Assembly (NCBI GenBank): GCA_032622095.1
Contig: CP136062.1
Span: 1 to 64,000 of the forward strand
DNA: 64,000 nucleotides
From: Siphonodentalium dalli
Taxonomy: Eukaryota; Mollusca; Scaphopoda; Gadilida; Siphonodentaliidae
Reading direction: 5' to 3'
Part shown: positions 34,632 to 63,543 of the stretch, piece after piece
Position numbering within the stretch: position 1 is the stretch's first letter
Layout of the letters: each line of letters begins with the position of its first letter
Notes under the pieces: model-generated
Database searches by the model: none
What the model was told of the DNA's origin: nothing
The model's input: the letters and a program-made list of their open reading frames with translations, nothing else
Made by a program: the position numbers and the translations under genes

Positions 34632-34741
34632 GTGGGTTTCCATTCGGTAACCGTAGTTTCACGGGTGATGACGTCACATCCAACTTCATCTACATACAGG
34701 ATGGATTTCCATTCGGAACAGAGACTCATTATCGGATATAT
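34632..34741 (+). CDS. internal exon: start of a NIDO (nidogen-like) domain
   Basis: This 110-bp exon lies between an acceptor (TTTCGCTGCAG) and a perfect donor (GTAAGT at 34742). It takes one base from an upstream exon, then reads 36 codons without a stop and ends in phase 0. The peptide has GFPFGNRSF near its start and DGFPFGTETHYRIY at its end. Joined to the exon at 45,406 this gives HYRIY followed by VGTNGIVSF, the expected order at the N-terminal half of a NIDO domain: a front segment, an FPFG strand, then a Y-x-x-Y/VxTNG strand. NIDO domains are extracellular and occur in nidogen, alpha-tectorin, SNED1 and MUC4-like proteins; which type this is cannot be told here. No in-frame ATG precedes it before a stop at 34592, so an upstream exon is required. 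A CRE-like TGACGTCA falls inside the exon. Confidence 0.62.
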
Positions 34742-35190
34742 GTAAGTATGGAGGGTAAAACGGTTCATAATTATAATACAACCCTAATCATTTGAAACAG
34801 AGACAATGTAAGTATGGAGGGTAAAACGGTTCATAATTCTAATATAACCCGAACCATTCGAAACAGAGACTATATAAGTATGGAGGGTAAAACGGATCAT
34901 AATTATAATACAACCCTAATCATTTGAAACAGAGACAATGTAAGTATGGAGGGTAAAACGTTTCATAATTCTAATATAACCCGAACCATTCGAAACAGAG
35001 ACTATGTAAGTATGGAGGGTTAAACGGGTCATAATTCTAATATAACCCGAAGCATTCGAAACAGAGACTCGCTATCGTGACTATGTAAGTATAGAGGGTT
35101 AAAGGGTCATAATTATAATATAACCCGAACCATTGGTAATAGAGACTCGTTATCGGGTCTATATAAGTATGGACGGTAAAACGGGTCATA
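34717..35190. repeat. 66-bp tandem repeat copying the exon end and its 5' splice site
   Basis: About seven units each carry CAGAGAC, a TATGTAAGTATGGAGGGT block, then CATAATT and AACCC. The (G/A)TAAGT landmark lies at 34742, 34808, 34874, 34940, 35006, 35085 and 35163. Spacing is 66 at first, then 79 and 78, where extra bases resemble the exon end (ACTCATTATCGG). The first unit overlaps the exon, so each copy reproduces the exon-intron border. GTAAGT is intact at 34742, 34808, 34940, 35006 and 35085, and lost (ATAAGT) at 34874 and 35163. Copies 1-4 alternate between two sequence types, giving a 132-bp dimer. Confidence 0.9.
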
Positions 35191-35830
35191 ACTAGATGTC
35201 AGATTCCATGGAATCAGATATATTTCCATGGTATCCCATTCCATGTGGGTGTTATGTGTATAGGTGTGTTCCTCTTCATGCGAATGCATATTGGTGCTTT
35301 GTGATCTGATGGTGGACTTGCATTGACATTTCTAAATAAGATATATATTCCAAAGGTTTATGTAATTTGGTTCGACCCACCGTGGATGATTAATGACAGT
35401 CTATTGCATGATGGTTGTGACCAACTGAGCCACCATTCACCCCAGTCAATCAGTTCACTTTTAATCGGTATGGATACATTTTAGAGCTAAGTATAACCTC
35501 TCCCCAGGACGCCCGTATCATATTCAACAATCACGAAATTTGGCGTGTCTGATTATGTCGTAATCGACATATAGATCAAAAGGGTGTAAGGCATATTAAT
35601 TTACCATAACTATGTTATGTCGCATTTATTGGATAGTTTTTTCAGTCTCGGATTCAGAATATTTTAGTTTTAATGGCGGAGGAAAGACCGCTTGGTTAAT
35701 TAATTAATTAATTAATTAGTATTTCAGTGCGTCATCGCTACACTATAGTCATTAACGTCTTTGTAATAGAGTTAACTGTAATCGAGAGATAACTATATCA
35801 CAATCGATAATGCTAGCTGAGTGCTTACGC
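35191..35830. other. intron sequence, no gene seen
   Basis: This stretch contains a perfect palindrome GATTCCATGGAATC at 35202-35215 and a TTAA-type microsatellite at 35696-35718. I see no convincing open frame or RNA gene. Confidence 0.55.
35696..35718. repeat. (TTAA)n microsatellite
   Basis: Five to six perfect TTAA/ATTA units lie in a row within intron sequence. Confidence 0.95.
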
Positions 35831-41016: not shown

Positions 41017-42205
41017 ATGAGCGATTTTAATATATCTTCATACTCCATATTTTTTAATGATGGTAACATTGCTGTTGCTATGCGTTGGACGTTTTCTATA
41101 TTCTTGATTAAACCCTTTCTAATTCTTTATATAGCAATTTGAATGTTTCCTTGTCCAGGTTTATAAATGCTCTTCTGATGATTCCCACCATTTTATTCGC
41201 CTTGTTTATTTGATTTTCTATATGTTCTTCATTGTCTTTTTTACTGGCGATTTTTCTCTATAAAGTTTAGTGTCCTCGGCATACATGTATGTGTAGGATA
41301 TTATTGATTCTATACAGTTTAGTGTCGTCGGCATACATGTATGTGTAGGACATTATTGATTCTGGTAAGTCGTTAATATATATGACGAAAAGAACAGGTC
41401 CCAGTATATATCCTTGTGGAATACCGCTGGTCACGCCATGCCAATCTGATGTTGATCCATTGGCAGAAACTTTTTGTTTTCTTCTACTTAGGAAGTTTTC
41501 TACCCAGTTACATAATTTTCATGTATTCCACAATATCTCATCTTTGATAGAAGCCTCTTGTTTGGTACCTTATCAAAATCTTTCATCAAATCTAAATATA
41601 TGGCATGAATTTCAACTTTATGGTCCAGAATCCTTGTCCATTCATCTGTTATTTTTAATAGTTAGTGTTGTTGATCTTCGTGCTATAAATCCAAATTATT
41701 TCTTGCTTAATAGGTTATTTTTTTCTAATTATTTTCTTCATTATTTTGCATATAAAACTGGTAAGACTTACTGGTCTACAATTTGCAGGATCGCCCTTTC
41801 TTCCCTTCTTATATATTTCAATTTGGTCCATTCTCCATGTTTATGGTACTTTTCCTTGTTTAAGCGATGCATTAAATATAGCTGTCATTGGTCTGTATAG
41901 ATTATATGCCAATTAATTCCTAAGTACTATTGGATGGATTCCATCTGGTCCTGGGGCTTTGCCGCTTTATTTATGTTTGTCGCTAGCAGTAAGTTCCTTA
42001 CATTTTCCCCTGATATTTCTTAATTTCTACTTAGTTGTGTTTCGGTTTCTATTTCTGGTATGTTGTTCAATCCTGATGGTGAACCATGAGTTTCTTGCGT
42101 GAAAACACTATTGAAGAAGTTGGATAATGCCATATAGCATTTTCCCTGTCTGTTAATTGTAATTAATATATCTGGTATTGACTCTTTAATGAATAAATAT
42201 TGTAA
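41017..42205 (-). pseudogene. CR1-like LINE reverse transcriptase, inactivated
   Basis: The minus strand carries conserved non-LTR reverse transcriptase motifs in the right order. They are a NNYFSSVFT-like segment (NFFNSVFTQETHGSP, about 42,100), GKAPGPDGIHP (41,932-41,963), KKGDPANCRPVSLTS (about 41,765-41,805), WVENFLSRRKQKVSANGSTS, SGIPQGYILGPVLFVIYIND (about 41,370-41,430), and the catalytic YADDTKL (about 41,323). Downstream come the LDKETFKLLYKE-like and QRIATAMLPSLKNMEYEDI segments that follow the palm in CR1/L2-type elements. The element would copy its own RNA by target-primed reverse transcription. It is dead: there are frame changes, stop codons, no 5' half or endonuclease, a 52-bp duplication through the catalytic motif, and an insertion splitting its C-terminus. 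It lies antisense in the intron between the two NIDO exons. Confidence 0.88.
41266..41363. repeat. 52-bp tandem duplication across the YADD motif
   Basis: The block TTTAGTGTC(C/G)TCGGCATA and its downstream sequence starts at 41266 and again at 41318. The copy at 41318 keeps GTCGTCGGC (YADD on the minus strand), while the other has GTCCTCGGC (YAED). A 52-base repeat shifts the frame. Confidence 0.9.
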
Positions 42206-43235: not shown

Positions 43236-43295
43236 CACTAACTTGGCAACAACAGGGAGTCAGGGATGTGGCTAGAGGGTCTCCGCTGGGGGGGT

Positions 43296-44040
43296 GTTCA
43301 CCTTGGGAATTTCCAACTGCACCCCCCCCCCCCTTTGAGTCGGAATCACACCACAACTTTTTACATAATTCCATTTGCACCCCCCCCCGTCTTCAGTCGG
43401 AATCGCACCAATAATAATCTTATGCAACATAATATTAACTCTGTAGACATACTTCTTTATGGGAAACCTGAACTAACTTATACTGAGAATAGTGATATTT
43501 TTAAGGCTGTACACTCGTATATTAGAGATTCCGGCCGTTTTGAGAGAACCTAACACTTTGACCATGCCATTCTACACCAAATCTACTTATAATATAATAT
43601 TCTAAGTTTGTACCTTGTTTCCTATGTACAATATATCCCAGTTATGCACTCAATAATTGATATATGCCTGTACTATCGTAATTTTACTTGTTGCAAGGGA
43701 ATGATCACCGACGGGTTGATGAAGCATACTCACACTCATCCCATCTCTCCACTGTAAACCGACCCTCCAATTCTCCTCCGCAATCGCCATTCTGTTTATT
43801 TACTTATATTTTTCATTATATGTATGTATATAATATACCTTGTGTTTTGTTCGTCTTTAGTGTCATAAAATTTGTCAGTGTATCATACTAGGGAGAGGAG
43901 GGTATTCTAAGTGATTTAGCACTTGTCCTCCAATCCCTTTTGTCATAAACCAATTTAATTTATGAACAAATAAAATATGTTTAAACAAAAAAAATCGCAC
44001 CAACATAACTTTTTGCATAATTCCATTTGCACCCCCCCCT
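43296..44040. repeat. subterminal direct repeats of the hAT element
   Basis: A segment with GTCGGAATC(A/G)CACCA, ACTTTTT(A/G)CATAATTCC and ATTTGCACCCCCCCC occurs at about 43,335-43,390 and again at 43,400-44,040. The second copy is split by the nested LINE. The poly-C runs end each copy. Confidence 0.75.
43412..43992 (+). mobile_element. 5'-truncated LINE 3' end nested in the hAT element
   Basis: The insert is bounded by an 11-bp perfect target duplication AATCGCACCAA (43401-43411 and 43993-44003). It opens directly in coding sequence, ILLYGKPELTYTENSDIFKA and onward through HSYIRDSGRF, ending at 43553. This resembles the extreme C-terminus of ORF2 in many invertebrate non-LTR elements (a FLLYGD-like strand followed by an IFxAVHxYIxxTxRF helix). 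A 3' untranslated part of about 440 bp ends in AATAAAATATGTTTAAAC and a short A-rich tail. Severe 5' truncation, an A-rich 3' end and a target duplication are the expected products of target-primed reverse transcription. The exact clade is not determined. Confidence 0.85.
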
Positions 44041-44189
44041 TGTACCTCATGCTCAGGCCTAATTTCCTATATATTCATAAGCCATGCTTTTTTCCCAGTA
44101 TGAGAACATTAAGATATTTTAACCTGAAAAAAATGCCAAAAAAGTGATCTAATTCCAGACAAATGCACACAGCTACAGACAACAGACCA

Positions 44190-44770
44190 GGAAACACAGG
44201 GCCGACCATGGTTGTTTGGCCCGGTGTGAGAAAATTTTGAAAACTATATACAAGAAAATCGCAAATCCTAGCATCTAGACTGGCCTCAACTGAAGCTTTC
44301 CTAGTGTTGGAAATTTCAAACCTCATGCTCCCTTCAGGTTGGAAAATTCTTCAACTGATGACCATTTATGTCTACAAGTTTGACCAAATGTAGTAAAATA
44401 TTGTTTTGCTAAACTAATTAGCGGTTTTGTATTGGCCATGTGGATGGGCAATGACACACCGGGCCGACCATGGTTCGGCCCGGTGTGCGAAAATTTTGAA
44501 ATCTGAACAAGAAAATCGCAAAATCCTAACATCTAGACTAACCTCAAGCCTTCCTACTGTTGGAAATTTCAAACCCTACACCCCCACTTAGGTTGGAAAA
44601 TTTCCAACTGATGACAATTCCAATGACAATGTTGACCAATTGTATGACAATATTGTTTTCTTAAATTAACTAGAAGTTTTTGACTGGCCACGGGGGAGGG
44701 ACCAGGACACAAGCTTTCCAAGTGTTGGAAATTTTCCAACCTGTCACCCCCCTAAGGTTGGAAAATTTCC
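44190..44770. repeat. internal direct repeats of the hAT element (about 200 bp, 3 copies)
   Basis: Three diverged copies share GGTTGGAAAATT(T/C), CAACTGATG, then GACAAT/TTTGACC and ATATTGTTTT. The copies are centred near 44,335, 44,590 and 44,755. The first two also share GGGCCGACCATGGTT and the following GCGAAAATTTTGAAA or its variant. Confidence 0.7.
44455..44487. repeat. 13-bp perfect stem hairpin
   Basis: CACACCGGGCCGA and TCGGCCCGGTGTG flank a 7-base loop (CCATGGT). A degenerate version lies at about 44,198-44,233, where extra bases (TTGT) and base changes disrupt the stem. Confidence 0.9.
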
Positions 44771-45009
44771 AACTGATGTCCATTTCTGTCAAAAAATTTG
44801 ACAAAAAATAGGAACATATGCAAATATTGGTCGAAAAACAATAAATTCCCCGCAATAAATTGTTTTATAATCGAACTACAAAAACATTTTCAACCTATTG
44901 TTGGTGTGAACTTTCGTTGTGGCAGGTATGAAATTTCCAACTATTGAAAATATAGCTCTCTGCTGGGGGGGTGAGACACCCCCACACCCCCCCTCTAGCC
45001 ACATCCCTG

Positions 45010-45405: not shown

Positions 45406-45711
45406 GTTGGAACGAATGGAATTGTCAGCTTCACGACACCATACAATAGCCCAGCTTCACATCCATTCAATAAAACATTCAACCATGCCGTCATCGCTCC
45501 ATTGTGGACCGATTTGGTTGCAAATGGCTGCGGGAAAGTGCATTACGAGCATCACTCAGTTGATGACCCAAACAGCAATCAGACCGTTATCACCATGACA
45601 GATGATTGGCTTGTTGAACTCCTCAATGTAGTTGGATTCTCAGCGACCGACGTGATCATCGTCACTTGGGTCCATGTGACACAATACCCTTACTCCCAAT
45701 ATAAAGATGAG
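45406..45711 (+). CDS. internal exon: core of the NIDO (nidogen-like) domain
   Basis: This 306-bp exon (102 codons, phase 0 at both ends) lies between the acceptor TTTTACAG and the donor GTGAGT. It begins VGTNGIVSFTTP, has NHAVIAPLWTDL in the middle and then a GKVHYEHH strand, and ends with TDVIIVTWVHVTQYPYSQYK. These are the NIDO hallmarks: a TNGxxSF strand, an IAPxWxD strand, a G-x-V-x-Y strand and a V-I-V-T-W strand. It joins the 34,632 exon exactly between HYRIY and VGTNG. Two N-glycosylation sequons (NKT, NQT) fit an extracellular protein. The rest of the domain should lie on an exon right of the window, beyond the macrosatellite. There is no stop or frameshift. Function beyond an extracellular matrix or mucin-like role is unknown. 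Confidence 0.75.
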
Positions 45712-45922
45712 GTGAGTTAACCTTACTCCCAATATAAAGATGAGGTGAGTTAACCTTACTCCCAATATAAAGATGAGGCGAGTTAACCTTACTCCCAATA
45801 TAAAGATCAGGTGAGTTAACCTTACTTCCAATATAAATGTCAGGTGAGTTAACCTTACTCCCAATATAACGATCAGGTGAGTTTTGAACTTTACTCCCAA
45901 TATAAAGATCAGGTTAGTTAAC
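45688..45922. repeat. 33-bp tandem repeat copying the exon end and its 5' splice site
   Basis: Seven units (starts 45688, 45721, 45754, 45787, 45820, 45853 and 45889) each hold CCTTACTCCCAATATAAAGA, then (T/C)(G/C)AG and GTGAGTTAA. The first unit is the last eight codons of the exon plus its donor. Donor strings lie at 45712, 45745, 45811, 45844 and 45877 (GTGAGT), 45778 (GCGAGT) and 45913 (GTTAGT). The unit is 11 codons long, but each contains TAA in the frame that continues the exon, so use of a later donor would end the protein two residues (VS) after the normal exon. Confidence 0.93.
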
Positions 45923-45935
45923 CAAGCCTGAATAC

Positions 45936-45997
45936 AAGCCTGCAAATAGCCTGTCTGTCATTTGCAGAATGAGGTCCCCAGACGGTGAATTTAGTGA
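45936..45997. repeat. truncated foldback-family copy at the satellite edge
   Basis: This copy runs from AAGCCTGCAAATAGC through TCTGTCATTTGCAGAATGAG to GGTGAATTTAGTGA and matches 42,687-42,748 in the same orientation. It stops where the 128-bp satellite begins. Confidence 0.85.
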
Positions 45998-47444
45998 TTC
46001 ATATAACCCACATGGAGCCTCTCTACAGGTGTCGTCTGTATCGGTCTACGTGGGGCTCTGTGTTACATATAATTAGTCAGGCTATCTGTACAGATATATA
46101 TAGCATCATTAGGACAGCAACGATTCATAAAACCCACAGGGAGCCCCACTACAGAGTGTCGTCTGCTCCCGTCTATGTGGGGCTCTCCGTGTTACATATA
46201 ATTATTCATGATATCTATACAGATATATGCAACATCATGAGGGCAGCAACGATTCATATAACCCACAGGGAGGCTCATTACAGAGTGTCGACTGCTCCGG
46301 TCTATGTGGGGCTCTCCGTGTTACATATAATTATTCAGGCTATCTATACAGATGTATAACATAATCAGGGCAGCAATGATTCATATAACCCATAGGGAGG
46401 CTCACTACAGAGTGCCGTCTGGTCCAGACTATGTGGGACTCTCTGTGTTACATATAATTAGTCAGGCTATCTATACAGATATATATAGCATCATGAGGGC
46501 AGCAACGATTCATATAACCCACAGGGAGCCTCAATACAGAGTGTCGTCTGCTCCCGTCTATGTGGGGCTCTCTGTAATACATATAATTAGTCAGGCTATC
46601 TATACAGATATATAACATCATCAGGACAGCAACGATTTATATAACCCACAGGGAGCCTCAATACAGAGTGTCGTCTGATCCAGACTATGTGGGACTCTCT
46701 GTGTTACATATAATTAGTCAGGCTATCTATACAGATATATATAACATCGTCAGGGCAGCAGCGATTCATATAACCCACAGGGAGCCTCAGTACAGAGTGT
46801 CGTCTGCTTCCGTTTATTTGGGTCTCTCTGTAATACATATAATTAGTCAGGCTATCTATACAGATATATATAACATCACGAGGACAGCAGCGATTCATAT
46901 AACCCACAGGGAGCCTCACTACAGAGTGTCGTCTGATCCAGACTATGTGGGACTCTCTGTGTTTAATATAATTGGTCAGGCTATCTTTTCAGATGTATAA
47001 CATCATGAGGGCAGCAACGATTCATACAACCCACAGGGAGCCTCACTACAGTGTGTCGTCTGCTCCCGTCTATGTGGGACTCTCTGTGTTACATATAATT
47101 AATCAGGCTATCTATACAGATATATAACATAATCAGGGCAGCAACGATTCATATAACCCACAGGGAGACTCACTACAGAGTGTCGTCTGCTGCGGTCTAT
47201 GTGGGACTCTCTGTGTTACATATAATTAGTCAGGCTATATATATACAGATATATATAACATCATCAGGGCCGCATCGATTCATATAACCCACAGGGAGCC
47301 TCACGACAGAGTGTCGTCTGCTCCAGACTATGTGGGACTCTCTGTGTTACATATAATTAGTCAGGCTATCTATACAGATATATATAGCATCATGAGGGCA
47401 GCAACGATTCATATAACCCACAGGGAGCCTCACTACAGAGTGTC
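45996..47444. repeat. satellite A array 1 (128-bp units, about 11 copies)
   Basis: Units start ATTCATATAACCCACAGGGA, continue with CAGAGTGTCGTCTGCTCC, TATGTGGGACTCTCTGTG and TTACATATAATTAGTCAGGC, and end with a TATA-rich stretch and CATCAGGGCAGCAACG. Spacings between unit starts measured here are 126-129. The leftmost units are the most divergent (CATGGAGCCTCTCTACAGG). Because the unit is close to 43 codons, long open frames appear on both strands, but they shift with each length variant and are not genes. This array holds the distinctive unit with TCATGATATC and GTCGACTGC (46,191-46,302). Confidence 0.95.
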
Positions 47445-47849
47445 AAATGAATATTCTTGTGAGACTCCCCATACGAAAGTGCCCCCACATACCAAGTTTC
47501 ATCGAAATCCCGTGATATTCGGGCGTTTGACCTTGAAATGACCCGATGCCAAGTTCAAGGTTACGTCGCACGGGCAAATTAATAGGTTTATGCCACTTTC
47601 CGACCGAAGGTACCCCCACATACCAAGTTTCATCGAAATCCCGTGATATTCGGGCGTTTGACCTTGAAATGACCCAATTTCAAGGTCAAGGTCACATCGC
47701 ACGGACAAATTAATAGGCCCATGCCACCCACCGGCCGAAAATACCCCCACATACGAAGTTTCATCGAAATCGGGTCGGCCGTTTTCGAGTTCATCGCGAA
47801 CACACACACACAGACACACACACACACAGATCTTCCAAAATATATATTA
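47445..47849. repeat. B element 1 (131-bp internal units)
   Basis: Tandem 131-bp units start at 47482, 47613 and 47744 with CCCCCACATACCAAGTTTCA. Each continues with TCGAAATCCCGTGATATTCG, TTTGACCTTGAAATGACC, a TCAAGGT(T/CA) stretch, GTCGCACGGGCAAATTAATA and CCGGCCGAA. The final copy ends in GGCCGTTTTCGAGTTCATCG, an (AC)n tract with CAGA, and ATCTTCCAAAATATATATTA. The left end is fused to satellite A inside an A unit (AGTGTC then AAATGAATATTC), so the normal CTAGAAGGTGACCCGAC start is missing. Confidence 0.9.
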
Positions 47850-48484
47850 GACTAGCCGATGAGCCCGACATTGTCCGGGCTATTCAAAAACCAAATTTCC
47901 AAGTCGATAGCTCCACCCGTTTCCGATATCTGGTCTGCGCATGCGCGAAGCTGGCGTCGCACGGGCTCGGCGACCAGATAAATTTCGTATCCGGGGCAAG
48001 ATACATTCACATAGCAAATTTCAAGTCGATAGCTCCACCCGTTTCCGAGATCTCGTCTGCGCATGTGCGAAGCTGGCGTCGCACGGGCTCGGCGACCCGA
48101 TAAAATTTGTATCCGGGGCAAGATACAGTCACATAGCAAATTTCAAGTCGATAGCTCCACCCGTTTCCGAGATCTCGTCTGCGCATGCGCGAAGCTGGCG
48201 TCGCACAGACTCGGCGACCAGATAAAATTCGTACTCGGGGCAAGATACATTCACATACCAAGTTTCAAGTCGATAGCTCCTCCCGTTTCCGAGATCTCGT
48301 CTGCGCATGCGCTGCACGGGCGTCGCACGGGCTCGCCAATACGACAACGACCACCGCCTGGTCAAACTACACACACATACCAAGTTTCGTCCCGATCGGT
48401 CGAGAATCGTAGATTTGTATTAAGGACAGACAGAGAGACAGTCAGACAAACAGACAGACAGAGGTCTTCAAAATATATATGAGA
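47850..48484. repeat. C element 1 (122-bp internal units)
   Basis: The element starts GACTAGCCGATGAGCCCGAC and contains a hairpin CCCGAC-ATT-GTCCGGG. Four 122-bp units follow, with GTCGATAGCTCC at 47903, 48025, 48147 and 48269. Each holds CCACCCGTTTCCGAGATC (or close), CTGCGCATGCGC, and GCTGGCGTCGCACGGGCTCG. The tail has CCAAGTTTCGTCCCGATCGG, an AGACAGACAG-rich tract and GGTCTTCAAAATATATATGA. The second unit carries CATGTGC in place of CATGCGC. Confidence 0.93.
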
Positions 48485-50110
48485 TAATCAGGGCAGCAAT
48501 GATTCATATAACCCACAGGGAGCCTCAATACAGAGTGTCGTCTGCTCCGGTCTATGTGGGACTCTCTGTGTTACATATAATTAATCAGGCTATCTATACA
48601 GATATATAACATAATCAGGGCAGCAACGATTCATATAACCCACAGGGAGCCTCACTACAGAGTGTCGTCTGCTCCGGTCTATTGGGGACTCTCTGTGTTA
48701 CATATAATTAGTCAGGCTATATATATACAGATATATATAACATCATCAGGGCCGCATCGATTCATATAACCCACAGGGAGCCTCACGACAGAGTGTCGTC
48801 TGCTCCAGACTATGTGGGACTCTCTGTGTTACATATAATTAGTCAGGCTATCTATACAGATATATATAGCATCATGAGGGCAGCAACGATTCATATAACC
48901 CACAGGGAGCCTCACTACAGAGTGTCGTCTGCTGCCGTCTATGTGGGTCTCTCTGTAATACATATAATTAGTCAGGCTATCTATACAGATATATATAACA
49001 CCACGAGGACAGCAGCGATTCATATAACCCACAGTGAGCCTCACTACAGAGTGTCGTCTGCTCCGGTCTATGTGGGACTCTCTGTGTTACATATAATTAA
49101 TCAGGCTATCTATACAGATATATAACATAATCAGGGCAGCAACGATTCATATAACCCACAGGGAGCCTCACTACAGAGTGTCGTCTGCTCCGGTCTATTG
49201 GGGACTCTCTGTGTTACATATAATTAGTCAGGCTATATATATACAGATATATATAACATCATCAGGGCCGCATCGATTCATATAACCCACAGGGAGCCTC
49301 AATACAGAGTGTCGTCTGCTCCGGTCTATGTGTGACTCTATGTGTTACATATAATTAGTCAGGCTATCTATACAGATATATATAGCATCATGAGGGCAGC
49401 AACGATTCATATAACCCACAGGGAGCCTCACTACAGAGTGTCGTCTGCTGCCGTCTATGTGGGTCTCTCTGTAATACATATAATTAGTCAGGCTATCTAT
49501 ACAGATATATATAACACCACGAGGACAGCAGCGATTCATATAACCCACAGTGAGCCTCACTACAGAGTGTCGTCTGCTCCGGTCTATGTGAGGCTCTCTG
49601 TGTTACATATAATTATTCAGGCTATATACACAGATGTGTAACATAATCAGGGCAGCAAGGATTCATATAACCCACAGGGAGCCTCACTACAGAGCGCCGT
49701 CTGATCCAGTCTATGTGGGACACTCTGTGTTACATATAATCGATTCATATAACCCACAGGGAGCCTCAATACAGAGTGTCGTCTGCTCCGGTCTATGTGG
49801 GACTCTCTGTGCTACATGATTAGTCAGGCTATATATACAGATATATATAACATGATCAGGGCAGCAACGATTCATATAACCCACAGGGAGCCTCAATACA
49901 GAGTGTCGTCTGCTCCGGTTTATGTGTGACTCTATGTGTTACATATAATTAGTCAGGCTATATATACAGCTATATATAACATAATCAGGGCAGCAACGAT
50001 TCATATAACCCACAGGGAGCCTCACTACAGAGTGTCGTCTGCTCCGGTCCATGTGGGGCTCTCTGTGTTACATATAATTAGTCAGGCTATATATACAAAT
50101 ATATATAACA
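48485..50110. repeat. satellite A array 2 (about 13 copies)
   Basis: Units are as in array 1, but this array has one internally deleted unit near 49,740 where TTACATATAAT is joined straight to CGATTCATATAACCC. Blocks 48,793-49,125 and 49,300-49,641 are near-copies of each other, showing an internal duplication of about 0.5 kb. Confidence 0.95.
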
Positions 50111-50680
50111 CTAGAAGGTGACCCGACTTCGTCCGGGCTTTGACCTTGAATTGACCCATCCAAAACACTCAGTGGACAAAAGTAGCCCTATGTATAAAAT
50201 TTCGTCGAAATCCCATCAAAATTGGCGATTTGACCTTGAATTGACCAGATTTCAAGGTCAAGGTCACGTCGCACGGGCAAATGAATATGCTTATGAGACT
50301 CCCCATAGGAAAGTACCCCCCACATACCAAGTTTCATCGAAATCCCGTGATATTCGGGCGTTTGACCTTGAAATGACCGATGTTAAGGTCAAGGTCACGT
50401 CGCATCGGGCAAATTAATATGCCCATGCCACCCCCCGGCCGAAAATACCCCCACAATACCAAGTTTCATCGAAATCCCGTGATATTCGGGCGTTTGACCT
50501 TGAAATGACCCGATTTCAAGGTCAATGTCACGTTGCACGGACAAATTAATAGGCCCATGCCAACCCCGGCCGAAAATACCCCCACACACCAAGTTTCATC
50601 GAAATCGGCTAGGCCGTTTTCGAGTTCATCGCGAACACACACACACACAGACAGACAGATCTTCCAAAATATAAAATAGA
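50111..50680. repeat. B element 2 (complete, B-prime type)
   Basis: The element starts CTAGAAGGTGACCCGACTTC, with hairpin CCCGAC-TTC-GTCCGGG, then TTTGACCTTGAATTGACC and CCAAAACACTCAGTGGACAA. Two to three 131-bp units follow. It ends in GGCCGTTTTCGAGTTCATCG, (AC)n, AGACAGACAGATCTTCC and ATATAAAATAGA. The next B element begins immediately after. Confidence 0.9.
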
Positions 50681-51430
50681 CTAGAAGGTGACCCCGACTT
50701 CGTCCGGGCTTTGACCTTGACTTGTCCATTTTGAAGGTCAAGGTCAAGTGGGGTCGCGATTTGACCAGTCCAAAACACTACCCGGACAAAAGTACCCGAC
50801 AAACGTGCCCGTCGAAATCCATCCGGTTTTACCCGATTTGACCTTGAATTGATGATTTTGAAGGGTCAAGGTCAGGTCGGGGTAACGATTTGACCCGTCG
50901 AAAACACTCAATGGACAAAAGTAACCCCTATGTATAAAATTTCGTCGAAATCCCATCAAAATTGGCGATTTGACCTTGAATTGACCAGATTTCAAGGTCA
51001 AGGTCACGTCGCACGGGCAAATGAATATTCTTGTGAGACTCCCCATACGAAAGTGCCCCCCACATACCAAGTTTCATCGAAATCCCGTGATATTCGGGCG
51101 TTTGACCTTGAAATGACCCCGATGCCAAGTTCAAGGTTACGTCGCACGGGCAAATTAATAGGTTTATGCCACTTTCCGGCCGAAGGTACTCCCAGCATAC
51201 CAAGTTTCATCGAAAATCCCGTGATATTCGGGCGTTTGACCTTGAAATGACCCAATTTCAAGGTCAAGGTCACATCGCACGGACAAATTAATAGGCCCAT
51301 GCCACCCACACCGGCCGAAAATACCCCCACATACGAAGTTTCATCGAAAATCGGGTCGGCCGTTTTCGAGTTCATCGCGAACACACACACACAGACACAC
51401 ACACACACAGATCTTCCAAAATATATATTA
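50681..51430. repeat. B element 3 (B-double-prime type, indel-rich)
   Basis: It has the same start as B element 2, but its 5' part carries CTTGTCCATTTTGAAGG and ACTACCCGGACAAAAGTACC before the shared 131-bp units. It shows many single-base insertions compared with the copies at 55,179 and 58,443, mostly in C and A runs. Confidence 0.9.
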
Positions 51431-52066
51431 GACTAGCCGATGAGCCCGACATTGTCCGGGCTATTCAAAAAACCAAATTTCCAAGTCGATAGCTCCACCC
51501 GTTTCCGATATCTGGTCTGCGCATGCGCGAAGCTGGCGTCGCACGGGCTCGGCGACCAGATAAATTTCGTATCCGGGGCAAGATACATTCACATAGCAAA
51601 TTTCAAGTCGATAGCTCCACCCGTTTCCGAGATCTCGTCTGCGCATGTGCGAAGCTGGCGTCGCACGGGCTCGGCGACCCGATAAAATTCGTATCCGGGG
51701 CAAGATACAGTCACATAGCAAATTTCAAGTCGATAGCTCCACCCGTTTCCGAGATCTCGTCTGCGCATGCGCGAAGCTGGCGTCGCACAGGCTCGGCGAC
51801 CAGATAAAATTCGTACTCGGGGCAAGATACATTCACATACCAAGTTTCAAGTCGATAGCTCCTCCCGTTTCCGAGATCTCGTCTGCGCATGCGCTGCACG
51901 GGCCGTCGCACGGGCTCGCCAATACGACAACGACCACCGCCTGGTCAAACTACACACACATACCAAGTTTCGTCCCGATCGGTCGAGAATCGTAGATTTG
52001 TATTAAGGACAGACAGAGAGACAGTCAGACAAACAGACAGACAGAGGTCTTCAAAATATATATGAG
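51431..52066. repeat. C element 2
   Basis: Four 122-bp units and the AGACAGACAG-type tail are present. Compared with C element 1 it has an extra A in the 5' AAAAAA run and an extra C in GGGCCGTCGC. Confidence 0.92.
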
Positions 52067-52380
52067 ATAATCAGGGCAGCAATGATTCATATAACCCACA
52101 GGGAGCCTCAATACAGAGTGTCGTCTGCTCCGGTCTATGTGGGACTCTCTGTGTTACATATAATTAGTCACGGCTATATATATACAGATATATATAACAT
52201 CATCAGGGCCGCATCGATTCATATAACCCACAGGGAGCCTCACGACAGAGTGTCGTCTGCTCCAGACTATGTGGGACTCTCCTGTGTTACATATAATTAG
52301 TCAGGCTATACAGATATATATAGCATCATGAGGGCAGCAACGATTCATATAACCCACAGGGAGCCTCACTACAGAGTGTC
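52067..52380. repeat. satellite A array 3 (short, about 2.5 units)
   Basis: Only two to three A units are present. The end AGTGTC fused to AAATGAATATTC is the same breakpoint as at 47,444. Extra bases break GTCAGGC (GTCACGGC) and CTCTCTG (CTCTCCTG). Confidence 0.9.
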
Positions 52381-52785
52381 AAATGAATATTCTTGTGAGA
52401 CTCCCCATACGAAAGTGCCCCCACATACCAAGTTTCATCGAAATCCCGTGATATTCGGGCGTTTGACCTTGAAATGACCCGATGCCAAGTTCAAGGTTAC
52501 GTCGCACGGGCAAATTAATAGGTTTATGCCACTTTCCGGCCGAAGGTACCCCCACATACCAAGTTTCATCGAAATCCCGTGATATTCGGGCGTTTGACCT
52601 TGAAATGACCCAATTTCAAGGTCAAGGTCACATCGCACGGACAAATTAATAGGCCCATGCCACCCACCGGCCGAAAATACCCCCACATACGAAGTTTCAT
52701 CGAAATCGGGTCGGCCGTTTTCGAGTTCATCGCGAACACACACACACAGACACACACACACACAGATCTTCCAAAATATATATTA
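52381..52785. repeat. B element 4 (same 5'-truncated type as B element 1)
   Basis: It is nearly identical to 47,445-47,849 and was therefore copied together with its fusion to satellite A. It lacks the usual start. Confidence 0.9.
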
Positions 52786-53419
52786 GACTAGCCGATGAGC
52801 CCGACATTGTCCGGGCTATTCAAAAACCAAATTTCCAAGTCGATAGCTCCACCCGTTTCCGATATCTGGTCTGCGCTTGCGCGAAGCTGGCGTCGCACGG
52901 GCTCGGCGACCAGATAAATTTCTTATCCGGGGCAAGATACATTCACATAGCAAATTTCAAGTCGATAGCTCCACCCGTTTCCGAGATCTCGTCTGCGCAT
53001 GTGCGAAGCTGGCGTCGCACGGGCTCGGCGACCCGATAAAATTCGTATCCGGGGCAAGATACAGTCACATAGCAAATTTCAAGTCGATAGCTCCACCCGT
53101 TTCCGAGATCTCGTCTGCGCATGCGCGAAGCTGGCTTCGCACAGGCTCGGCGACCAGATAAAATTCGTACTCGGGGCAAGATACATTCACATACCAAGTT
53201 TCAAGTCGATAGCTCCTCCCGTTTCCGAGATCTCGTCTGCGCATGCGCTGCACGGGCGTCGCACGGGCTCGCCAATACGACAACGACCACCGCCTGGTCA
53301 AACTACACACACATACCAAGTTTCGTCCCGATCGGTCGAGAATCGTAGATTTGTATTAAGGACAGACAGAGAGACAGTCAGACAAACAGACAGACAGAGG
53401 TCTTCAAAATATATATGAG
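52786..53419. repeat. C element 3
   Basis: Four 122-bp units are present. It differs from C element 1 by CTGCGCTTGCGC in the first unit and GCTGGCTTCGCAC in the third; both changes recur in C element 4. Confidence 0.92.
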
Positions 53420-54612
53420 ATAATCAGGGCAGCAATGATTCATATAACCCACAGGGAGCCTCAATACAGAGTGTCGTCTGCTCCGGTCTATGTGGGACTC
53501 TCTGTGTTACATATAATTAATCAGGCTATCTATACAGATATATAACATAATCAGGGCAGCAACGATTCATATAACCCACAGGGAGCCTCACTACAGAGTG
53601 TCGTCTGCTCCGGTCTATTGGGGACTCTCTGTGTTACATATAATTAGTCAGGCTATATATATACAGATATATATAACATCATCAGGGCCGCATCGATTCA
53701 TATAACCCACAGGGAGCCTCACGACAGAGTGTCGTCTGCTCCAGACTATGTGGGACTCTCTGTGTTACATATAATTAGTCAGGCTATCTATACAGATATA
53801 TATAGCATCATGAGGGCAGCAACGATTCATATAACCCACAGGGAGCCTCACTACAGAGTGTCGTCTGCTGCCGTCTATGTGGGTCTCTCTGTAATACATA
53901 TAATTAGTCAGGCTATCTATACAGATATATATAACACCACGAGGACAGCAGCGATTCATATAACCCACAGTGAGCCTCACTACAGAGTGTCGTCTGCTCC
54001 GGTCTATGTGAGGCTCTCTGTGTTACATATAATTATTCAGGCTATATACACAGATGTGTAACATAATCAGGGCAGCAAGGATTCATATAACCCACAGGGA
54101 GCCTCACTACAGAGCGCCGTCTGATCCAGTCTATGTGGGACACTCTGTGTTACATATAATCGATTCATATGACCCACAGGGAGCCTCAATACAGAGCGCC
54201 GTCTGATCCAGTCTATGTGGGACACTCTGTGTTACATATAATCGATTCATATAACCCACAGGGAGCCTCAATACAGAGTGTCGTCTGCTCCGGTCTATGT
54301 GGGACTCTCTGTGCTACATGATTAGTCAGGCTATATATACAGATATATATAACATGATCAGGGCAGCAACGATTCATATAACCCACAGGGAGCCTCAATA
54401 CAGAGTGTCGTCTGCTCCGGTCTATGTGTGACTCTATGTGTTACATATAATTAGTCAGGCTATATATACAGCTATATATAACATAATCAGGGCAGCAACG
54501 ATTCATATAACCCACAGGGAGCCTCACTACAGAGTGTCGTCTGCTCCGGTCCATGTGGGGCTCTCTGTGTTACATATAATTAGTCAGGCTATATATACAA
54601 ATATATATAACA
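53420..54612. repeat. satellite A array 4
   Basis: About nine full units and two internally deleted units (joins near 54,160 and 54,245) are present. Arrays 5 and 6 have the same pair of deleted units, so all three descend from one macro-unit. Confidence 0.95.
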
Positions 54613-55178
54613 CTAGAAGGTGACCCGACTTCGTCCGGGCTTTGACCTTGAATTGACCCATCCAAAACACTCAGTGGACAAAAGTAGCCCTATGTATAAA
54701 ATTTCGTCGAAATCCCATCAAAATTGGCGATTTCACCTTGAATTGACCAGATTTCAAGGTCAATGTCACGTCGCACGGGCAAATGAATATGCTTATGAGA
54801 CTCCCCATTGGAAAGTACCCCCACATACCAAGTTTCATCGAAATCCCGTGATATTCGGGCGTTTGACCTTGAAATGACCCGATATTAAGGTCAAGGTCAC
54901 GTCGCACGGGCAAATTAATATGCCCATGCCACCCCGGCCGAAAATACCCCCACATACCAAGTTTCATCGAAATCCCGTGATATTCGGGCGTTTGACCTTG
55001 AAATGACCCGATTTCAAGGTCAATGTCACGTTGCACGGACAAATTAATAGGCCCATGCCAACCCTGGCCGAAAATACCCCCACACACCAAGTTTCATCGA
55101 AATCGGCTAGGCCGTTTTCGAGTTCATCGCGAACACACACACACACAGACAGACAGATCTTCCAAAATATAAAATAGA
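54613..55178. repeat. B element 5 (complete, B-prime type)
   Basis: Start CTAGAAGGTGACCCGACTTC and end ATATAAAATAGA are as in B element 2. The 5' part reads GGCGATTTCACCTTG in place of GGCGATTTGACCTTG, a change shared with B element 7. Confidence 0.92.
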
Positions 55179-56049
55179 CTAGAAGGTGACCCGACTTCGT
55201 CCGGGCTTTGACCTTGACTTGTCCATTTTGAAGGTCAAGGTCAAGTGGGGTCGCGATTTGACCAGTCCAAAACACTACCCGGACAAAAGTACCCGACAAA
55301 CGTGCCCGTCGAAATTCATCCGGTTTTACCCGATTTGACCTTGAATTGATGATTTTGAAGGTCAAGGTCAGGTCGGGGTAACGATTTGACCCGTCGAAAA
55401 CACTCAATGGACAAAAGTAACCCTATGTATAAAATTTCGTCGAAATCCCATCAAAATTGGCGATTTGACCTTGAATTGACCAGATTTCAAGGTCAAGGTC
55501 ACGTCGCACGGGCAAATGAATATTCTTGTGAGACTCCCCATACGAAAGTGCCCCCACATACCAAGTTTCATCGAAATCCCGTGATATTCGGGCGTTTGAC
55601 CTTGAAATGACCCGATGCCAAGTTCAAGGTTACGTCGCACGGGCAAATTAATAGGTTTATGCCACTCTCCGGCCGAAGGTACCCCCACATACCAAGTTTC
55701 ATCGAAATCCCGTGATATTCGGGCGTTTGACCTTGAAATGACCCGATGCCAAGTTCAAGGTTACGTCGCACGGGCAAATTAATAGGTTTATGCCACTTTC
55801 CGGCCGAAGGTACCCCCACATACCAAGTTTCATCGAAATCCCGTGATATTCGGGCGTTTGACCTTGAAATGACCCAATTTCAAGGTCAAGGTCACATCGC
55901 ACGGACAAATTAATAGGCCCATGCCACCCACCGGCCGAAAATACCCCCACATACGAAGTTTCATCGAAATCGGGTCGGCCGTTTTCGAGTTCATCGCGAA
56001 CACACACACACAGACACACACACACACAGATCTTCCAAAATATATATTA
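55179..56049. repeat. B element 6 (B-double-prime type with one extra 131-bp unit)
   Basis: It is the same as B element 8 but carries one more 131-bp unit at about 55,684-55,815. This explains most of the length difference between successive macro-units (3,264 against 3,134). Confidence 0.92.
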
Positions 56050-56683
56050 GACTAGCCGATGAGCCCGACATTGTCCGGGCTATTCAAAAACCAAATTTCC
56101 AAGTCGATAGCTCCACCCGTTTCCGATATCTGGTCTGCGCTTGCGCGAAGCTGGCGTCGCACGGGCTCGGCGACCAGATAAATTTCGTATCCGGGGCAAG
56201 ATACATTCACATAGCAAATTTCAAGTCGATAGCTCCACCCGTTTCCGAGATCTCGTCTGCGCATGTGCGAAGCTGGCGTCGCACGGGCTCGGCGACCCGA
56301 TAAAATTCGTATCCGGGGCAAGATACAGTCACATAGCAAATTTCAAGTCGATAGCTCCACCCGTTTCCGAGATCTCGTCTGCGCATGCGCGAAGCTGGCT
56401 TCGCACAGGCTCGGCGACCAGATAAAATTCGTACTCGGGGCAAGATACATTCACATACCAAGTTTCAAGTCGATAGCTCCTCCCGTTTCCGAGATCTCGT
56501 CTGCGCATGCGCTGCACGGGCGTCGCACGGGCTCGCCAATACGACAACGACCACCGCCTGGTCAAACTACACACACATACCAAGTTTCGTCCCGATCGGT
56601 CGAGAATCGTAGATTTGTATTAAGGACAGACAGAGAGACAGTCAGACAAACAGACAGACAGAGGTCTTCAAAATATATATGAG
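56050..56683. repeat. C element 4
   Basis: Four 122-bp units are present. It carries the TTGCGC and GGCTTCGCAC changes found in C element 3. Confidence 0.92.
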
Positions 56684-57876
56684 ATAATCAGGGCAGCAAT
56701 GATTCATATAACCCACAGGGAGCCTCAATACAGAGTGTCGTCTGCTCCGGTCTATGTGGGACTCTCTGTGTTACATATAATTAATCAGGCTATCTATACA
56801 GATATATAACATAATCAGGGCAGCAACGATTCATATAACCCACAGGGAGCCTCACTACAGAGTGTCGTCTGCTCCGGTCTATTGGGGACTCTCTGTGTTA
56901 CATATAATTAGTCAGGCTATATATATACAGATATATATAACATCATCAGGGCCGCATCGATTCATATAACCCACAGGGAGCCTCACGACAGAGTGTCGTC
57001 TGCTCCAGACTATGTGGGACTCTCTGTGTTACATATAATTAGTCAGGCTATCTATACAGATATATATAGCATCATGAGGGCAGCAACGATTCATATAACC
57101 CACAGGGAGCCTCACTACAGAGTGTCGTCTGCTGCCGTCTATGTGGGTCTCTCTGTAATACATATAATTAGTCAGGCTATCTATACAGATATATATAACA
57201 CCACGAGGACAGCAGCGATTCATATAACCCACAGTGAGCCTCACTACAGAGTGTCGTCTGCTCCGGTCTATGTGAGGCTCTCTGTGTTACATATAATTAT
57301 TCAGGCTATATACACAGATGTGTAACATAATCAGGGCAGCAAGGATTCATATAACCCACAGGGAGCCTCACTACAGAGCGCCGTCTGATCCAGTCTATGT
57401 GGGACACTCTGTGTTACATATAATCGATTCATATGACCCACAGGGAGCCTCAATACAGAGCGCCGTCTGATCCAGTCTATGTGGGACACTCTGTGTTACA
57501 TATAATCGATTCATATAACCCACAGGGAGCCTCAATACAGAGTGTCGTCTGCTCCGGTCTATGTGGGACTCTCTGTGCTACATGATTAGTCAGGCTATAT
57601 ATACAGATATATATAACATGATCAGGGCAGCAACGATTCATATAACCCACAGGGAGCCTCAATACAGAGTGTCGTCTGCTCCGGTCTATGTGTGACTCTA
57701 TGTGTTACATATAATTAGTCAGGCTATATATACAGCTATATATAACATAATCAGGGCAGCAACGATTCATATAACCCACAGGGAGCCTCACTACAGAGTG
57801 TCGTCTGCTCCGGTCCATGTGGGGCTCTCTGTGTTACATATAATTAGTCAGGCTCTATATACAAATATATATAACA
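56684..57876. repeat. satellite A array 5
   Basis: It is nearly identical to array 4, including both internally deleted units. One difference is CAGGCTCTATAT near 57,850 in place of CAGGCTATATAT. Confidence 0.95.
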
Positions 57877-58442
57877 CTAGAAGGTGACCCGACTTCGTCC
57901 GGGCTTTGACCTTGAATTGACCCATCCAAAACACTCAGTGGACAAAAGTAGCCCTATGTATAAAATTTCGTCGAAATCCCATCAAAATTGGCGATTTCAC
58001 CTTGAATTGACCAGATTTCAAGGTCAATGTCACGTCGCACGGGCAAATGAATATGCTTATGAGACTCCCCATTGGAAAGTACCCCCACATACCAAGTTTC
58101 ATCGAAATCCCGTGATATTCGGGCGTTTGACCTTGAAATGACCCGATATTAAGGTCAAGGTCACGTCGCACGGGCAAATTAATATGCCCATGCCACCCCG
58201 GCCGAAAATACCCCCACATACCAAGTTTCATCGAAATCCCGTGATATTCGGGCGTTTGACCTTGAAATGACCCGATTTCAAGGTCAATGTCACGTTGCAC
58301 GGACAAATTAATAGGCCCATGCCAACCCTGGCCGAAAATACCCCCACACACCAAGTTTCATCGAAATCGGCTAGGCCGTTTTCGAGTTCATCGCGAACAC
58401 ACACACACACAGACAGACAGATCTTCCAAAATATAAAATAGA
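57877..58442. repeat. B element 7 (complete, B-prime type)
   Basis: It is essentially identical to B element 5, with the GATTTCACC change. Confidence 0.92.
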
Positions 58443-59183
58443 CTAGAAGGTGACCCGACTTCGTCCGGGCTTTGACCTTGACTTGTCCATTTTGAAGGTC
58501 AAGGTCAAGTGGGGGTCGCGATTTGACCAGTCCAAAACACTACCCGGACAAAAGTACCCGACAAACGTGCCCGTCGAAATTCATCCGGTTTTACCCGATT
58601 TGACCTTGAATTGATGATTTTGAAGGTCAAGGTCAGGTCGGGGTAACGATTTGACCCGTCGAAAACACTCAATGGACAAAAGTAACCCTATGTATAAAAT
58701 TTCGTCGAAATCCCATCAAAATTGGCGATTTGACCTTGAATTGACCAGATTTCAAGGTCAAGGTCACGTCGCACGGGCAAATGAATATTCTTGTGAGACT
58801 CCCCATACGAAAGTGCCCCCACATACCAAGTTTCATCGAAATCCCGTGATATTCGGGCGTTTGACCTTGAAATGACCCGATGCCAAGTTCAAGGTTACGT
58901 CGCACGGGCAAATTAATAGGTTTATGCCACTCTCCGGCCGAAGGTACCCCCACATACCAAGTTTCATCGAAATCCCGTGATATTCGGGCGTTTGACCTTG
59001 AAATGACCCAATTTCAAGGTCAAGGTCACATCGCACGGACAAATTAATAGGCACATGCCACCTCCCGGCCGAAAATACCCCCACATACTAAGTTTCATCG
59101 AAATCGGGTCGGCCGTTTTCGAGTTCATCGCGAACACACACACACAGACACACACACACACAGATCTTCCAAAATATATATTA
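58443..59183. repeat. B element 8 (B-double-prime type)
   Basis: It is as B element 6 without the extra 131-bp unit. Private changes are CAAGTGGGGGTCGCG, GGCACATGCCACCTCCC and CATACTAAGTTTC. Confidence 0.92.
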
Positions 59184-59817
59184 GACTAGCCGATGAGCCC
59201 GACATTGTCCGGGCTATTCAAAAACCAAATTTCCAAGTCGATAGCTCCACCCGTTTCCGATATCTGGTCTGCGCATGCGCGAAGCTGGCGTCGCACGGGC
59301 TCGGCGACCAGATAAATTTCGTATCCGGGGCAAGATACATTCACATAGCAAATTTCAAGTCGATAGCTCCACCCGTTTCCGAGATCTCGTCTGCGCATGT
59401 GCGAAGCTGGCGTCGCACGGGCTCGGCGACCCGATAAAATTCGTATCCGGGGCAAGATACAGTCACATAGCAAATTTCAAGTCGATAGCTCCACCCGTTT
59501 CCGAGATCTCGTCTGCGCATGCGCGAAGCTGGCGTCGCACAGGCTCGGCGACCAGATAAAATTCGTACTCGGGGCAAGATACATTCACATACCAAGTTTC
59601 AAGTCGATAGCTCCTCCCGTTTCCGAGATCTCGTCTGCGCATGCGCTGCACGGGCGTCGCACGGGCTCGCCAATACGACAACGACCACCGCCTGGTCAAA
59701 CTACACACACATACCAAGTTTCGTCCCGATCGGTCGAGAATCGTAGATTTGTATTAAGGACAGACAGAGAGACAGTCAGACAAACAGACAGACAGAGGTC
59801 TTCAAAATATATATGAG
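59184..59817. repeat. C element 5
   Basis: Four 122-bp units are present. It has CTGCGCATGCGC in the first unit, like C elements 1 and 2 and unlike C elements 3 and 4. Confidence 0.92.
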
Positions 59818-61012
59818 ATAATCAGGGCAGCAATGATTCATATAACCCACAGGGAGCCTCAATACAGAGTGTCGTCTGCTCCGGTCTATGTGGGACTCTC
59901 TGTGTTACATATAATTAATCAGGCTATCTATACAGATATATAACATAATCAGGGCAGCAACGATTCATATAACCCACAGGGAGCCTCACTACAGAGTGTC
60001 GTCTGCTCCGGTCTATTGGGGACTCTCTGTGTTACATATAATTAGTCAGGCTATATATATACAGATATATATAACATCATCAGGGCCGCATCGATTCATA
60101 TAACCCACAGGGAGCCTCACGACAGAGTGTCGTCTGCTCCAGACTATGTGGGACTCTCTGTGTTACATATAATTAGTCAGGCTATCTATACAGATATATA
60201 TAGCATCATGAGGGCAGCAACGATTCATATAACCCACAGGGAGCCTCACTACAGAGTGTCGTCTGCTGCCGTCTATGTGGGTCTCTCTGTAATACATATA
60301 ATTAGTCAGGCTATCTATACAGATATATATATAACACCACGAGGACAGCAGCGATTCATATAACCCACAGTGAGCCTCACTACAGAGTGTCGTCTGCTCC
60401 GGTCTATGTGAGGCTCTCTGTGTTACATATAATTATTCAGGCTATATACACAGATGTGTAACATAATCAGGGCAGCAAGGATTCATATAACCCACAGGGA
60501 GCCTCACTACAGAGCGCCGTCTGATCCAGTCAATGTGGGACACTCTGTGTTACATATAATCGATTCATATAACCCACAGGGAGCCTCAATACAGAGCGCC
60601 GTCTGATCCAGTCTATGTGGGACACTCTGTGTTACATATAATCGATTCATATAACCCACAGGGAGCCTCAATACAGAGTGTCGTCTGCTCCGGTCTATGT
60701 GGGACTCTCTGTGCTACATGATTAGTCAGGCTATATATACAGATATATATAACATGATCAGGACAGCAACGATTCATATAACCCACAGGGAGCCTCAATA
60801 CAGAGTGTCGTCTGCTCCGGTCTATGTGTGACTCTATGTGTTACATATAATTAGTCAGGCTATATATACAGCTATATATAACATAATCAGGGCAGCAACG
60901 ATTCATATAACCCACAGGGAGCCTCACTACAGAGTGTCGTCTGCTCCGGTCCATGTGGGGCTCTCTGTGTTACATATAATTAGTCAGGCTATATATACAA
61001 ATATATATAACA
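59818..61012. repeat. satellite A array 6
   Basis: It has the same layout as arrays 4 and 5, with both deleted units. Private changes include an extra TA in the TATATATA tract near 60,330 and GTCAATGTGGG near 60,529. Confidence 0.95.
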
Positions 61013-61747
61013 CTAGAAGGTGACCCGACTTCGTCCGGGCTTTGACCTTGACTTGTCCATTTTGAAGGTCAAGTGGGGTCGCGATTTGACCAGTCCAAAA
61101 CACTACCCGGACAAAAGTACCCGACAAACGTGCCCGTCGAAATCCATCCGGTTTTACCCGATTTGACCTTGAATTGATGATTTTGAAGGTCAAGGTCAGG
61201 TCGGGGTAACGATTTGACCCGTCGAAAACACTCAATGGACAAAAGTAACCCTATGTATAAAATTTCGTCGAAATCCCATCAAAATTGGCGATTTGACCTT
61301 GAATTGACCAGACTTCAAGGTCAAGGTCACGTCGCACGGGCAAATGAATATTCTTGTGAGACTCCCCATACGAAAGTGCCCCCACATACCAAGTTTCATC
61401 GAAATCCCGTGATATTCGGGCGTTTAACCTTGAAATGACCCGATGCCAAGTTCAAGGTTACGTCGCACGGGCAAATTAATAGGTTTATGCCACTCTCCGG
61501 CCGAAGGTACCCCCACATACCAAGTTTCATCGAAATCCCGTGATATTCGGGCGTTTGACCTTGAAATGACCCAATTTCAAGGTCAAGGTCACATCGCACG
61601 GACAAATTAATAGGCCCATGCCACCCCCGGCCGAAAATACCCCCACATACGAAGTTTCATCGAAATCGGGTCTGCCGTTTTCGAGTTCATCGCGAACACA
61701 CACACACAGACACACACACACACACAGATCTTCCAAAATATATATTA
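61013..61747. repeat. B element 9 (B-double-prime type)
   Basis: Here the B-double-prime element directly follows satellite A; the B-prime element seen in the two preceding macro-units is missing. The 5' part has lost six bases of a GGTCAAGGTCAAG repeat. Confidence 0.92.
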
Positions 61748-62381
61748 GACTAGCCGATGAGCCCGACATTGTCCGGGCTATTCAAAAACCAAATTTCCAA
61801 GTCGATAGCTCCACCCGTTTCCGATATCTTGTCTGCGCATGCGCGAAGCTGGCGTCGCACGGGCTCGGCGACCAGATAAATTTCGTATCCGGGGCAAGAT
61901 ACATTCACATAGCAAATTTCAAGTCGATAGCTCCACCCGTTTCCGAGATCTCGTCTGCGCATGTGCGAAGCTGGCGTCGCACGGGCTCGGCGACCCGATA
62001 AAATTCGTATCCGGGGCAAGATACAGTCACATAGCAAATTTCAAGTCGATAGCTCCACCCGTTTCCGAGATCTCGTCTGCGCATGCGCGAAGCTGGCGTC
62101 GCACAGGCTCGGCGACCAGATAAAATTCGTACTCGGGGCAAGATACATTCACATACCAAGTTTCAAGTCGATAGCTCCTCCCGTTTCCGAGATCTCGTCT
62201 GCGCATGCGCTGCACGGGCGTCGCACGGGCTCGCCAATACGACAACGACCACCGCCTGGTCAAACTACACACACATACCAAGTTTCGTCCCGATCGGTCG
62301 AGAATCGTAGATTTGTATTAAGGACAGACAGAGAGACAGTCAGACAAACAGACAGACAGAGTCTTCAAAATATATATGAGA
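61748..62381. repeat. C element 6
   Basis: Four 122-bp units are present. It has ATATCTTGTCTGCGC in the first unit, and the tail reads AGACAGAGTCTTC, lacking one G. Confidence 0.92.
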
Positions 62382-63181: not shown

Positions 63182-63543
63182 GAGATACATTCACATAGCA
63201 AATTTCAAGTCGATAGCTCCACCCGTTTCCGAGATCTCGTCTGCGCATGCGCGAAGCTGGCGTCGCACGGGCTCGGCGACCGATAAAATTCGTATCCGGG
63301 GCAAGATACATTCACATACCAAGTTTCAAGTCGATAGCTCCTCCCGTTTCCGAGATCTCGTCTGCGCATGCGCTGCACGGGCGTCGCACGGGCTCGCCAA
63401 TACGACAACGACCACCGCCTGGTCAAACTACACACACGTACCAAGTTTCGTCCCGATCGGTCGAGAATCGTAGATTTGTATTAAGGACAGACAGAGAGAC
63501 AGTCAGACAAACAGACAGACAGAGGTCTTCAAACTATATATGA
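63182..63543. repeat. C element 7, internally and 5' deleted
   Basis: It starts inside a 122-bp unit (TGAGATACATTCACATAGC), keeps roughly two units and the complete AGACAGACAG tail, and has lost the hairpin start. One base is missing in GGCGACCGATAAAATTC. Confidence 0.9.

Follow-up and report, generated by a model that had tools for sequence, protein, structure and literature searches.

Why should two neighbouring exons of one gene each be followed by a row of tandem copies of their own 3' end, splice donor included? The exons lie in the window analysed here, the first 64 kb (64,000 nucleotides, forward strand) of contig C2 of the scaphopod Siphonodentalium dalli, whose genome comprises 2.23 Gb in nine contigs. 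The original prediction, made for the second of these exons, held that two such arrays side by side are hard to put down to chance and offered two explanations: a mechanism linked to the formation of introns by tandem duplication, and a regulated switch that truncates the transcript.

Border arrays in a NIDO gene and its copies

Exon 2 (45406-45711, forward strand; 102 codons) ends in PYSQYKDE and encodes the first part of a NIDO domain; joined to exon 1 (34632-34741, forward strand) it gives a clear NIDO match (PF06119, E 7.2e-13, 49.4 bits against a Pfam cut-off of 25). The array at its 3' border (45688-45922, forward strand) begins with the unit that belongs to the exon itself (45688-45720), after which come six more; five of the seven measure 33 bp, unit 6 measures 36 bp and the last, which is cut, 34 bp. 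TRF places the array at 45688-45923 (period 33, 7.1 copies, 90% matches, score 375). A unit consists of the last 24 nt of the exon, i.e. the eight codons of PYSQYKDE, followed by GTGAGTTAA. The donors stand in the order GTGAGT, GTGAGT, GCGAGT, GTGAGT, GTGAGT, GTGAGT, GTTAGT, and both the predicted seven copies of the last eight codons with a GTGAGT-type donor and the tally of five GTGAGT, one GCGAGT and one GTTAGT could be read directly from the units. A TAA in the continuing frame, said to occur in every unit, is present in six of the seven; unit 6 (GTGAGTTTTGAAC) has none, and its frame continues open into unit 7. When up to three mismatches are allowed, the unit pattern has 23 matches genome-wide, all within four copies of this gene, and its reversed control has none; by this measure the exon 2 array exceeds chance.

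A protein search with exon 2 returned 15 matches, namely the four close copies, five distant ones of 40-46% identity and six units of an array at C7:697k. Apart from the window, the close copies of this exon lie at C2:14168196-14168507 (reverse strand), C7:576556-576867 and C7:697522-697833; exon 1 likewise occurs in three further places, its DNA being 100, 96 and 88% identical. The two C2 copies, 98.9% identical across 2,275 bp around exon 1, have the same exon 1 DNA and the same exon 2 protein. Among one C2 and the two C7 copies dN/dS is 0.21-0.23 for exon 2 (0.21 for the window against each C7 copy) and 0.31-0.45 for exon 3, and from these low values it follows that both exons are held as protein.

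Border arrays are found throughout this family, with units and copy numbers that differ from copy to copy: all four gene copies, which share ancestry and are not four observations, have copies of tail and donor after exons 1, 2 and 3. Exon 1 (phase 2 start, GFPFGNRSF...HYRIY, 36 open codons), whose acceptor GCAG and donor GTAAGT were read directly, is followed in the window by six further copies of its tail and donor (34742-35191, forward strand; TRF and unit alignment), which bears out the prediction that the neighbouring exon also has such an array. These window units measure about 61-79 bp, and the C2:14.18M copy aligns with the window through this stretch; counting the exon's own, there are seven units in the window, four at C7:569k and five at C7:688k, ranging from 52 to 83 bp. 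At exon 2, the C7:697k copy has seven units of 114 bp, each composed of 68 nt of exon tail and of intron that includes a decayed 33-bp copy, and the C7:576k copy has one adjoining altered copy and scattered decayed ones. Exon 3 of the window gene lies at C2:84411-84642, 38.7 kb downstream of exon 2, with counterparts at C2:14165240-14165470, C7:579531-579770 and C7:700404-700628. Its 72-bp tail copies vary from one to sixteen full extra units: one in each C2 copy, two at C7:700k and sixteen at C7:579k. The last of these arrays (C7:579699-580957; L039 1340-2598), with 17 units of 72 bp, is free of stops in the exon's frame, which would allow a long isoform containing repeats of 24 residues.

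In C7 the NIDO exons are preceded by a Thr/Ser-rich repeat exon, open from 562488 to its donor at 567208, and by eye about four decayed copies of its tail follow at steps of about 31-33 bp; this mucin-type exon was read in the one gene copy. Within it a 24-bp coding repeat (TTTETAST-like) runs for more than 4.5 kb in a single exon (C7:562515-567182; L054 2516-7183). MUC4-like mucin-NIDO proteins have the same order, with a Thr/Ser-rich repeat exon upstream of NIDO; the downstream domains of those proteins were not found here, and the mucin repeat lies in the protein and is unrelated to the intronic arrays. In total, arrays stand at four of the four exon ends read in the C7 gene copy (three of four by TRF alone) and at none of its three exon starts. 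It is unusual for one gene copy to have arrays at all of the exon ends examined.

Repeat-rich DNA near contig ends is difficult to assemble, and this general consideration is what would speak for an assembly artefact. Border arrays with different, internally diverged units are present at four separate loci, and the exon 2 arrays of the two C2 copies share seven 33-bp units in equal order with private changes; against these observations we regard an artefact as extremely improbable.

The window holds several other repeats. At the start of contig C2 a 34-kb satellite (1-33980; 26-bp unit, about 1310 copies) ends 650 bp before exon 1, and further upstream exons would therefore lie outside the window. 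Intron 2 is full of satellites of 129, 131 and 122 bp (45996-64000), and the distance from exon 2 to exon 3 is 38.7 kb here against 2.7 kb in the C2:14.17M copy. A stretch of about 1.75 kb (43261-45009) is missing from that otherwise near-identical copy; its ends are inverted over about 19 bp (CAGGGATGTGGCTAGAGGG), which suggests that a DNA transposon inserted here recently. On the reverse strand, an open frame (41267-41518) has motifs (GIPQGYILGPVLF, YADD) that we take to be reverse-transcriptase-like, presumably those of a LINE fragment.

Relation of the arrays to the introns

If the intron after exon 2 had been born from tandem duplication, the repeats themselves would have made it, and the AG|GT present in each exon 2 unit is the structure that such a model requires. 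The distant NIDO relatives speak against it. In all five, both borders of exon 2 fall at identical positions, with a plain GTGAGT donor matching in position the first donor of the window array (GAG|GTGAGT, 45712-45717, forward strand), which is presumably the one mostly in use. The end of exon 3 is also the same in the one distant relative read (by eye). By TRF, none of nine donors in these relatives (five of exon 2, four of exon 3) lies in an array; two of the relatives have a repeat of two copies some 150 bp inside intron 3. As array-free relatives share the intron position, the comparison indicates that the arrays arose in old introns and that the introns are older than the arrays. Moreover, the ends of intron 2 are not both in repeats: its real acceptor is that of exon 3 at C2:84411, 38.7 kb away and outside the array. 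These comparisons refute the intron-birth model for the intron after exon 2 and, on the one relative read, for that after exon 3; we give it almost no credence, and the proposed link to intron formation falls with it. A comparison of the C7 flanks with those of a distant relative revealed no further exon, only short matches resembling dispersed repeats.

Spare donors and transcript truncation

A regulated truncation switch would work through the choice of a spare donor, which would add stops and lead to a shortened or decayed transcript. Three points favour it: 1) splicing from any of the spare donors after exon 2 in the window would bring the first TAA into the transcript; 2) units 4-6 of this array read CAG|GTGAGT, nearer to the consensus than the exon's own GAG|GTGAGT, and given these sites leaky use of spare donors is plausible; 3) for the ABCA7 gene, an isoform that keeps one unit of an intronic repeat array has been described in human cells (PMC5954066).

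The spare donors themselves vary as the rest of the units do. In seven family arrays (the second C2 exon 2 array being omitted as a near duplicate, with neither the C2 exon 3 units nor the decayed copies at the upstream mucin-type exon, exon 0, and at exon 2 of C7:576k counted), 8 of 258 cells in the spare donor hexamers depart from the array consensus, against 126 of 2823 at other positions (p 0.42), which is a weak test on cells that are not independent. The GT is gone in one of six spare units of the window exon 2 array and in 2/6 (window), 1/3 and 3/4 spare units of the three exon 1 arrays. The sole full extra exon 3 unit has the donor GCGAGT in both C2 copies, and the exon 3 array is open in frame over its full units in the C7:579k and C2 copies; it would therefore not truncate the protein at once. 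Two comparisons lean the other way. All 16 spare donors of the exon 3 array at C7:579k are unchanged (0/6 columns against 9/66), and, relative to the exon's own unit in 11 arrays, 35 of 510 donor cells have changed against 276 of 2401 tail cells, a comparison biased in that five of the arrays were found by requiring perfect donors and shared differences were counted repeatedly. Overall, in what is a weak test, the spare donors show no measurable extra constraint and there is no sign of a maintained switch; this part of the original prediction thus finds no backing, and we judge a regulated switch to be quite improbable. Unit lengths divisible by three (33, 66, 72 and 114 bp) were also considered as a sign of coding and rejected, for the family has units of 31, 52, 79 and 83 bp as well, and arrays elsewhere in the genome have units of 41, 38 and 29 bp.

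Chance, repeat load and arrays elsewhere in the genome

Tandem repeats make up 21% of bases in the window gene region, 28% in the C7 copy region, 17% in intron 1 once its border array is set aside, and 10-13% in other loci. When local arrays were re-placed at random, P was 0.014 for both window donors lying in arrays, 0.018 for three of four donors by TRF in the C7 copy, and 0.00035 for all four once the decayed exon 2 copies were added by hand, these values all being post hoc. With a stricter overlap of 6 bp on either side of the donor, one of two and two of four donors qualify and P becomes 0.19-0.25 (window 0.22-0.25; also post hoc); the relaxed rule asks for 2 bp, as the exon 1 arrays begin, by TRF, 3 bp ahead of the donor. 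The claim that two neighbouring arrays are hard to ascribe to chance is supported under the relaxed rule but not under the stricter one.

Beyond chance, we must weigh a process directed at exon 3' ends, for example breakage or template switching at transcribed donors, that duplicates tail and donor repeatedly in certain genes. We consider it unlikely, though several observations would fit it: within the family, the four of four exon ends against none of three exon starts in one gene copy and the renewed expansion of arrays, more than once, at matching borders of sister copies; genome-wide, the excess of CAGGTRAGT triplets over the reversed word. Three CAGGTRAGT words at 33-63 bp spacing were counted at 2505 places and their reversed form at 793; the corresponding counts are 5110 and 3096 for three AGGTRAGT words, 150 and 257 for the acceptor-like TTTYTNCAGG triplets and 26245 and 31437 for the single CAGGTRAGT (all on both strands). 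These are counts of places and not of arrays, and a few long satellites dominate those listed, which weakens them as support for a directed process; we draw no rate from them. GATGAAGTGAGT, used as a first probe, was uninformative.

Among the matches listed on contig C1 (to 257.6 Mb), the CAGGTRAGT triplets fall into 12 loci, all of which were inspected, and, by eye, nine unit families, and the reversed word into three unit families grouped in the same way. In five of the 12 listed loci (L022, L026, L027, L028, L030) the stretch before the first donor contains an acceptor-like site and an open frame, as a directed process would lead one to expect. The frame of L026 matches USP47_C (E 1.6e-12), with a border array at its donor; that of L028 is weakly CRABP-like (best PDB E 0.15, no Pfam match); L027 and L030 have no Pfam match, and L022 is too short for a Pfam scan. 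TRF found no other repeat in 16 kb beside the USP47-like exon, which argues against a gene-wide process there; of four open reading frames beside this exon, candidates for its neighbouring exons, two have weak Pfam matches under the cut-off and two have none.

On the acceptor side, the matches listed comprise 13 loci with 14 stretches. Three of these loci (L043, L047, L052) contain mirror-image arrays, in which the intron end and exon head are copied upstream: L052 precedes an ABCC exon (PDB E 9.5e-14), L047 a DAAF9-like one (E 0.0016, under the cut-off), and L043 has no Pfam match. At L040 a GANP-like frame (E 0.00089, under the cut-off) follows an array that includes the acceptor without the exon head. 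Border arrays are therefore sporadic and occur on donor and acceptor sides alike. The mirror-image arrays weaken the idea of genome-wide amplification of donors only and count against a directed process, as does the absence of arrays at all nine donors of the distant relatives. Among the matches listed, the genome-wide scan that had been suggested as a check thus speaks more for general repeat growth than for a donor-specific process.

Origin of the arrays and their parallels

Our best reading is that exon borders are generally subject to tandem duplication in this repeat-rich genome, and we think it probable that the arrays are minisatellites born across old exon borders and tolerated because only their intronic side grew. 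The duplicated borders would be old exon-intron junctions of mucin-NIDO genes, a family situated in repeat-rich DNA, partly near contig ends, with slippage or unequal exchange as the likely source of the units. One unit would be the real exon end with its donor, kept by selection on the protein, and the others, being intronic, would be free to drift, expand or shrink. Border duplications at each exon end may have been inherited by the four copies and then expanded differently in each. Spare donors would be used at a low level, giving by-products with stops. Tolerance itself may explain much of the donor bias, as a spare donor lies beyond the real one and a spare acceptor before it. Sister copies with different units at one border (33 bp x7, 114 bp x7, decayed) support this general reading. 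Two results stand against it: four of four exon ends against none of three starts exceeds what dense repeats readily give, and donors in the 11 arrays have changed less than tails, with those of the C7:579k exon 3 array unchanged. One might suppose that in some genes of this animal tandem duplication prefers exon 3' ends together with their donors, such that each exon can gain a donor array, with renewed expansion in sister copies and a series of alternative donors as the result; we rate this broader proposition as rather doubtful.

The closest precedent is the VNTR in intron 18 of human ABCA7, whose 25-bp unit has the exon 18 donor as its first bases and whose length varies among people (PMC5954066). 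Both cases have an array at an exon border with the exon's donor in every unit; the ABCA7 unit starts at the donor GT, in one gene (PMC5954066), whereas here 24 to about 68 nt of exon tail are copied as well and several exons of one gene are affected. The window array covers the 3' end of exon 2 with the donor at 45712, repeats that donor, and belongs to a family in which copy number varies between gene copies. Human tandem-array introns were reportedly described by Zhuo et al. in 2007. For Drosophila, introns gained by tandem duplication have been reported, which share with our case tandem AG|GT copies beside coding sequence; there duplication makes a new intron, whereas here the introns appear to be older than the arrays (PMC2891723). 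A literature search, with most subscription journals outside its scope, found no title or abstract on donor arrays at every exon of a gene.

Even if the arrays are ordinary minisatellites, the family offers a natural test bed, in four differing copies, for how one donor is chosen among a near-identical row. If instead their growth were directed at donors, splicing or transcription would be linked to a so far unrecognised origin of tandem repeats, and introns would have a means of lengthening at their own 5' ends.
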